Source: Blautia sp.
GTDB taxonomy: Bacteria > Bacillota > Clostridia > Lachnospirales > Lachnospiraceae
Assembly: GCA_017515325.1 (NCBI GenBank)
Contig: JAFWGA010000040.1
Span: forward strand, 1-64,000
DNA length: 64,000 bases
Direction of reading: 5' to 3'
Shown here: one piece after another, positions 27,932 through 28,028 of the stretch
How the letters are laid out: each line of letters begins with the position of its first letter
How positions within the stretch are numbered: the first letter of the stretch is position 1
Notes under the pieces: model-generated
Seen by the model: the letters and a program-made list of their open reading frames with translations, nothing else
Database searches by the model: none
What the model was told of the DNA's origin: nothing
Translations under genes and position numbers: made by a program

Positions 27932-28028
27932 AGTATGCGCACGAATTTACTGCGGAATCATGCCGCTTACAGCGGCGTAAATTCGGCGCAGTAAACGAAT
28001 CAAAATGCAGGCATTTTGTTCGTTTACT
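27932..28028 (-). repeat. 97-nt two-hairpin element (copy B), start of pta leader
   Basis: The first domain pairs TTTACTGCG with CGCAGTAAA, enclosing GCCGC-TTACA-GCGGC. The second pairs AACGAA-CAAAATGC with GCATTTTGTTCGTT (14 pairs, one bulged T). The promoter at 28046-28074 places the transcript start about ten bases before it, so the element would be the 5' end of pta-ackA mRNA. Confidence 0.88.

Follow-up and report, generated by a model that had tools for sequence, protein, structure and literature searches.

The gene for phosphate acetyltransferase, pta (26772..27776, minus strand; Pfam PTA_PTB), whose start codon at 27776 is consistent with its relatives, lies in a 64-kb window (the whole stretch of DNA analysed) downstream of a promoter of the form TTGAAA-17-TATAAT at 28046..28074 on the same strand, which confirms the promoter of the original prediction. 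Between promoter and gene stands a repeat, copy B (27929..28031, minus strand), which occupies the predicted pta 5′ untranslated region, ends in TATAG...CTATA and was the top match in a genome search. Copy A (24519..24621, minus strand) lies between rpmF and plsX (23483..24499, minus strand; Pfam FA_synthesis) and has worn ends, TAACG...CTTTA. Both are where they had been predicted and are nearly identical, with 95% identity in the genome search with copy B and, within the earlier coordinates, five mismatches in 97 positions, or four without a boundary base. The third proposed copy, C (49798..49880, minus strand), upstream of an XpaC-like gene (Pfam Halogen_Hydrol), is indeed a diverged member of the family (profile match, E 9.9e-21), but its right end is unrecognisable. 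Alignment of copies gave a unit of ~103 bp with the termini TATAGTA...TACTATA. The window also holds a right-end relic (23397..23433, plus strand; partial profile match, E 5.3e-5), a right-half relic (41110..41145, plus strand; partial profile match, E 1.8e-6), a solitary right end (10286..10302, minus strand; exact match to a 17-base pattern) and a left-end relic (56020..56036, plus strand; 17-base pattern with one mismatch).

Copies A and B fold more stably than shuffled sequence (z -5.4 and -6.3, respectively; 0 of 200 shuffles equalled either), and copy C folds no better than its shuffles (z -1.4; 14 of 200 equally good). Searches of Rfam at the gathering score found no match in the 64-kb window, and the three matches around A and B were at chance level. 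The pta frame is open upstream through all of copy B to 28034 (26772-28034), forming a 420-aa frame; an N-terminal extension of Pta through copy B is unlikely, since the PTA_PTB domain begins only at residue 89 of that frame.

The draft genome that carries the window (G000; 3.31 Mb, 68 contigs, 87.7% complete) returned at least 40 near-full matches to copy B at 86-100% identity and five short ones, 40 of the 171 initial candidates having been scored. Allowing up to two mismatches, a 14-base right-end pattern matched 110 times versus 15 for its reversed control, a 17-base right-end pattern 88 times versus 0 for the reversed control, and a 17-base left-end pattern 58 times versus 2 for the control. 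Across 286 kb of stretches of this genome, picked around matches and partly overlapping, the profile identified 51 near-full and 12 partial copies. The element is thus short, multicopy and dispersed, as expected of a MITE, and carries terminal inverted repeats (TATAGTA/TACTATA), the end stem being paired in 83.1% of cells.

Distribution within the genus is patchy: 7 of 60 genomes, including G000, contain a MITE match, and the 17-base right-end pattern is comparably abundant in G036 (91 matches) and G031 (129) and occurs 0 to 3 times in each of the other genomes. In the GTDB collection, an exact 21-base pattern retrieved 79 stretches labelled mostly Blautia or Lachnospiraceae, 77 of which were profile-positive; matches in Oscillibacter (L060) and in a Woesearchaeota bin (L097) had no profile match and were excluded. 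No matches were found in plasmids and phages by blastn, or in viral contigs with one exact 21-base pattern. A subfamily for which no matching transposase was found occurs in other Lachnospiraceae (L034, L037, L041, L054, L067, L068, L089, L100, L102 and others), with ends TATAGGAAACG...GCATCC and with the stem GGATGCAC/GTGCATCC in place of GAATTTAC/GTAAATTC. An IS partner for the TATAGGA subfamily was sought in 18 genomes, but the nine IS630 loci found, in six of them, all lack such ends. In L031, two ends enclose 2.15 kb in which no transposase is obvious by eye.

Duplication of TA only is the habit of IS630/Tc1-type elements. Among 36 copies with intact ends, we observed no duplication beyond TA, and the neighbouring bases were T (21/36) and A (21/36). 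In G036 one MITE copy borders a different repeat, and comparison of this filled site with other copies of that repeat fits TA duplication; this was the best pair found, none being clean, and it rests on only four matching bases on the left. The other repeat begins CATGATTCAGGCGACAAAAGGTCATGCAAAAATGAGC... and has a palindromic core, this MITE copy having landed in its edge (L085:6142-6461, L120:91-307); it also occurs in L106, L116, L035 and L050 (G036 and its named record).

We searched five genomes for the DDE_3 domain of IS630 transposases. The domain was absent from the draft genomes G000 (87.7% complete), G031 and G048, present once in G036, also a draft, at a locus that is cut short and has a single visible end (TATAGTAAACGAATTTAA), and present once in G014 in a protein unlike that of G036, with ends that do not match the MITE. 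In G035 and G345, relatives of the G036 transposase lie in IS630-type elements of ~1.16 kb bounded on each side by TATAGTAAACG (with a single mismatch at one G345 end), and another such relative, in G377, has a single TATAGTAAACG-type end with two mismatches. The left end of the MITE has its first 11 bases in common with the IS ends of G035 and G345, and 13 with that of G036. Ten further IS630 loci (nine in 6 of 18 other genomes reached through carrier loci, plus that of G014) lack matching ends, and G035 has the IS and no MITE match. In two IS630-type elements (L136:1472-2627 and L137:844-2008), an in-frame stop interrupts the transposase frame in each; two overlapping frames in L136 resemble one gene, perhaps through a programmed frameshift and perhaps through decay. 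The IS630-type elements of G035, G345 and G036 and the MITE are the same in their terminal TATAGTAAACG and TA-containing ends, but the former encode a transposase, whereas the MITE does not and its interior, judged by eye, does not look like a shortened version of the IS.

An IS630-type transposase is a good candidate for the mobiliser, given the shared termini. At a probability of roughly 85%, we interpret the element as a non-autonomous MITE of ~103 bp that was spread in trans by an IS630/Tc1-type transposase, with copy B as an insertion behind the pta promoter. A DDE transposase of this type would most likely have acted on the TATAGTA...TACTATA ends and inserted the element at TA. The original prediction had named a REP-like mobile element as its alternative, which was right in kind. 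The case for the transposase is weakened by the lack of an IS630 domain in G000, G031 and G048 and by the unmatched ends of most IS630 loci in carriers. Another mobilisation route, such as a single-strand IS200/IS605 or REP-associated transposase that recognises folded hairpins, would suit the conserved, covarying hairpins with their one-sided bulge (see below) and the shortage of matching IS630 elements in most carriers tested; we consider it improbable given inverted ends with TA and an 11-base terminus in common with IS630 elements.

Comparison of orthologous loci indicates that the pta promoter is old and predates the insertion. All 29 pta loci with 80 nt or more of upstream sequence, that of G000 among them, have the promoter (spacers of 15-19 and TTGACA allowed). 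By profile, the MITE was present at 1 of 30 pta loci and 1 of 30 plsX loci, in both cases only in G000, among 30 genomes each (own included, from 59 and 56 matching genomes, respectively). Upstream sequence was shorter than 330 nt at five of these pta loci and at one for plsX, and the copy-rich G031 lay outside the set read. The nearest relative by Pta, G036 (95% identity), has many copies elsewhere and none at these two loci. The MITE therefore inserted a few bases behind a promoter that was already there. Copy B would have landed just downstream of this conserved promoter, and the pta transcript of this genome, with a predicted start near 28039, probably begins with it. The proposal that the element forms the 5′ end of the pta mRNA thus stands, as a prediction, for this one genome, and does not extend to the other pta loci read, where the profile does not find the element.

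A cis-acting regulatory RNA, riboswitch-like or a protein-binding leader, that was spread or retained to regulate pta-ackA, plsX and other genes would also place a stable fold just behind the pta promoter and would be compatible with copies that are mostly intergenic; its absence upstream of nearly all orthologous genes read argues against retention for that purpose. The window is 92% coding, yet 47 of 51 near-full copies in G000 lie between two called genes, two being called inside a gene and two standing at contig edges. Copies A, B and C share one orientation upstream of genes, as had been described, but this does not hold genome-wide: between co-directional genes, 13 copies run with the genes and 20 against them (p 0.30), so that the orientation expected of a transcribed leader is not seen. 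These neighbour and orientation counts used a retrained gene caller, the first version having taken an antisense open frame over ackA-pta. Convergent neighbours flank only 2 of 47 copies, but we make no claim of a preference for 5′ regions, as a TA-weighted baseline, drawn from the window and from stretches chosen around copies, gave p 0.26.

The fold supported by the family comprises a closing stem of both ends and two hairpins, H1 (TAAACGAA-CAAAATGC / GCATTTTG-A-TTCGTTTA) and H2 (TGCGC-CGAATTTAC-GCCGC / GCGGC-11-nt bulge-GTAAATTCG-T-GCGCA). Across 121 copies (137 near-full copies minus 17 dropped by hand, mostly the most diverged, plus copy C of the window), 93.7% of cells are paired, and 206 cells carry double changes, compared with 69.6 (sd 6.1) in shuffles, a test inflated by related sequences, and 19-47 in slid controls, in which relatedness is preserved. 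With all 138 rows and none dropped by hand, 92.6% of cells are paired and double-change cells number 228 versus 76.2. These pair counts were used in place of RNAalifold, which returned an empty structure for the full alignment, with a small structure from the first 60 rows alone and a more extensive one from the last 35. The covariation of the family is genuine, but it lies mostly between subfamilies of different species, and a covarying secondary structure, although expected of a leader RNA, is not specific to one. The letters do show the B-to-C paired changes on which the original prediction drew. The supported fold retains the GCCG/CGGC stem, whereas the family as a whole does not keep the TTACTGCG/CGCAGTAA helix (column pair 49-95 is unpaired in 60/121 rows and 51-93 in 59/121). 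The competing fold TTTACTGCG/CGCAGTAAA, which contains that main stem, has 16 double-change cells versus 8.6 expected over the 121 copies and two pairs broken in about half of the rows; a two-state switch between the folds was dropped.

Selection for an RNA on one strand should leave more G-U than A-C defects in stems. In G000 the two are balanced, at 59:58 in the 39 rows of the trimmed alignment and 78:74 in all 46 rows, and we thus see no sign of one-strand RNA selection among the copies of this genome. The other genomes show an excess of G-U (134:58 in trimmed rows, 160:71 in all rows), mainly in H1 (88:28), where the wobble is common to whole subfamilies. Simple drift is opposed by the paired changes among the 46 own copies, which number 21, more than in any of 300 shuffles (averaging 9.6 and reaching 19 at most); in the hand-trimmed set of 39 they number 12, within the range of shuffles (mean 6.8, maximum 16). 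An equal balance of G-U and A-C together with extra paired changes suggests that DNA is where the pairing has its role or its origin: there may be several source subfamilies, one palindrome arm may be copied from the other, or movement may need the fold. The pattern among own copies is not an indication of a leader RNA.

On this evidence a regulatory RNA is a distinctly poor explanation, even allowing for its strong covariation across copies, the surplus of paired changes within G000 and the G-U excess elsewhere, since presence at single loci, mixed orientation, balanced defects in own copies, a wobble that is subfamily-wide in the other genomes and the lack of an Rfam match all count against it. 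Neither a regulator of pta-ackA or of acetate and lipid genes nor domestication at leaders, both proposed originally, is supported, given that the profile finds the element at one locus in 30 for pta and for plsX, that copies lie in both orientations and that own copies show no RNA-strand-specific constraint. The MITE reading is weakened by interior pairing that covaries beyond what a passive passenger needs. On the MITE reading, pairing would be kept mainly in source copies, or by copying between palindrome arms, and not through an RNA function of the inserted copies. It is possible, though we think it rather unlikely, that the internal two-hairpin structure is needed for movement as well as the ends; source copies would then keep pairing by compensatory change across species, on both strands alike, and a folded DNA strand or cruciform would be read by the mobilising machinery in a variant of IS630-type mobilisation. 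The within-genome excess of paired changes without a G-U bias makes this slightly more probable.

Decay of the MITE accounts for further forms. Across three genomes, the 111 right-end occurrences read comprise 70 near-full, 13 partial and 28 solitary cases. Among 21 left-end sites outside the near-full set, separated from it by eye, at least three continue to a worn right end by the same inspection and the others break off. Three 26-bp forms, TAT[A/C]GTAAATTCGTGCGCATAC[T/G]ATA, correspond by eye to the expected product of a deletion between two AGTAAA repeats, and this is probably the origin of each (L204, G000:C24:69986-70011; L213, G000:C6:7767-7792; L267, G036:C104:32045-32070). The solitary right-end motif (TTCGTGCGCATACKATA) might instead be the operator of a host protein, carried to new genes by the MITE, in keeping with the 28 solitary ends, none of which lies within a called gene and many of which lie just upstream of a start codon (placed with the first gene caller). 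Other genomes of the genus have the motif only at background (0 to 3 matches each, versus 88, 91 and 129 in G000, G036 and G031), and it is therefore not an older host operator; broken-off left ends occur too, as truncation predicts, and three of the sites are the 26-bp deletion product. We rejected the operator explanation as very improbable on the background level and the breaking off of left ends.

Correia/NEMIS ends begin TATAG, and REP/RAYT elements go with a Y1 transposase. RUP of Streptococcus pneumoniae is closest in kind: it is 107 bp long, has ~108 copies, is intergenic, targets TA, has ends like those of IS630-Spn1 and is strongly folded (PMC2229807, PMC3049150). The likeness to our element, which is one of description only, extends to similar length, intergenic placement, TA, IS630-like ends and strong fold; the differences are another host family, pairing that here covaries between species, and an own genome without a matching IS630. 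Correia/NEMIS of Neisseria is also a short MITE with TA at its termini and a highly base-paired transcript; what sets its description apart is terminal repeats of 24 bp and a proposal that RNase III processes it (PMC2229807). REP/RAYT repeats are described as 20-40 bp palindromes with a GTAG or CGTC tag (PMC3733652), as against the 103-bp unit here. The main text of a 2024 review of prokaryotic MITEs, as available, contains neither 'IS630' nor 'Clostridi' (PMC10969869), and the accessible portion of the literature on MITEs, REPs and IS630 in Blautia and Lachnospiraceae yielded no description of the present family. We regard the element as a new family within a class already known.

A striking 'leader RNA' is thereby explained as an insertion, and the case shows why covariation in a dispersed repeat cannot be taken to mean that a given gene is regulated by it. 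Setting covariation between subfamilies against the G-U/A-C balance within a genome offers a simple test for other structured repeats. The more interesting question is why the interior pairing of a MITE persists between species. For its hosts, the element means that many genes in Blautia-like and other Lachnospiraceae genomes have gained 5′ untranslated structures and relic ends.
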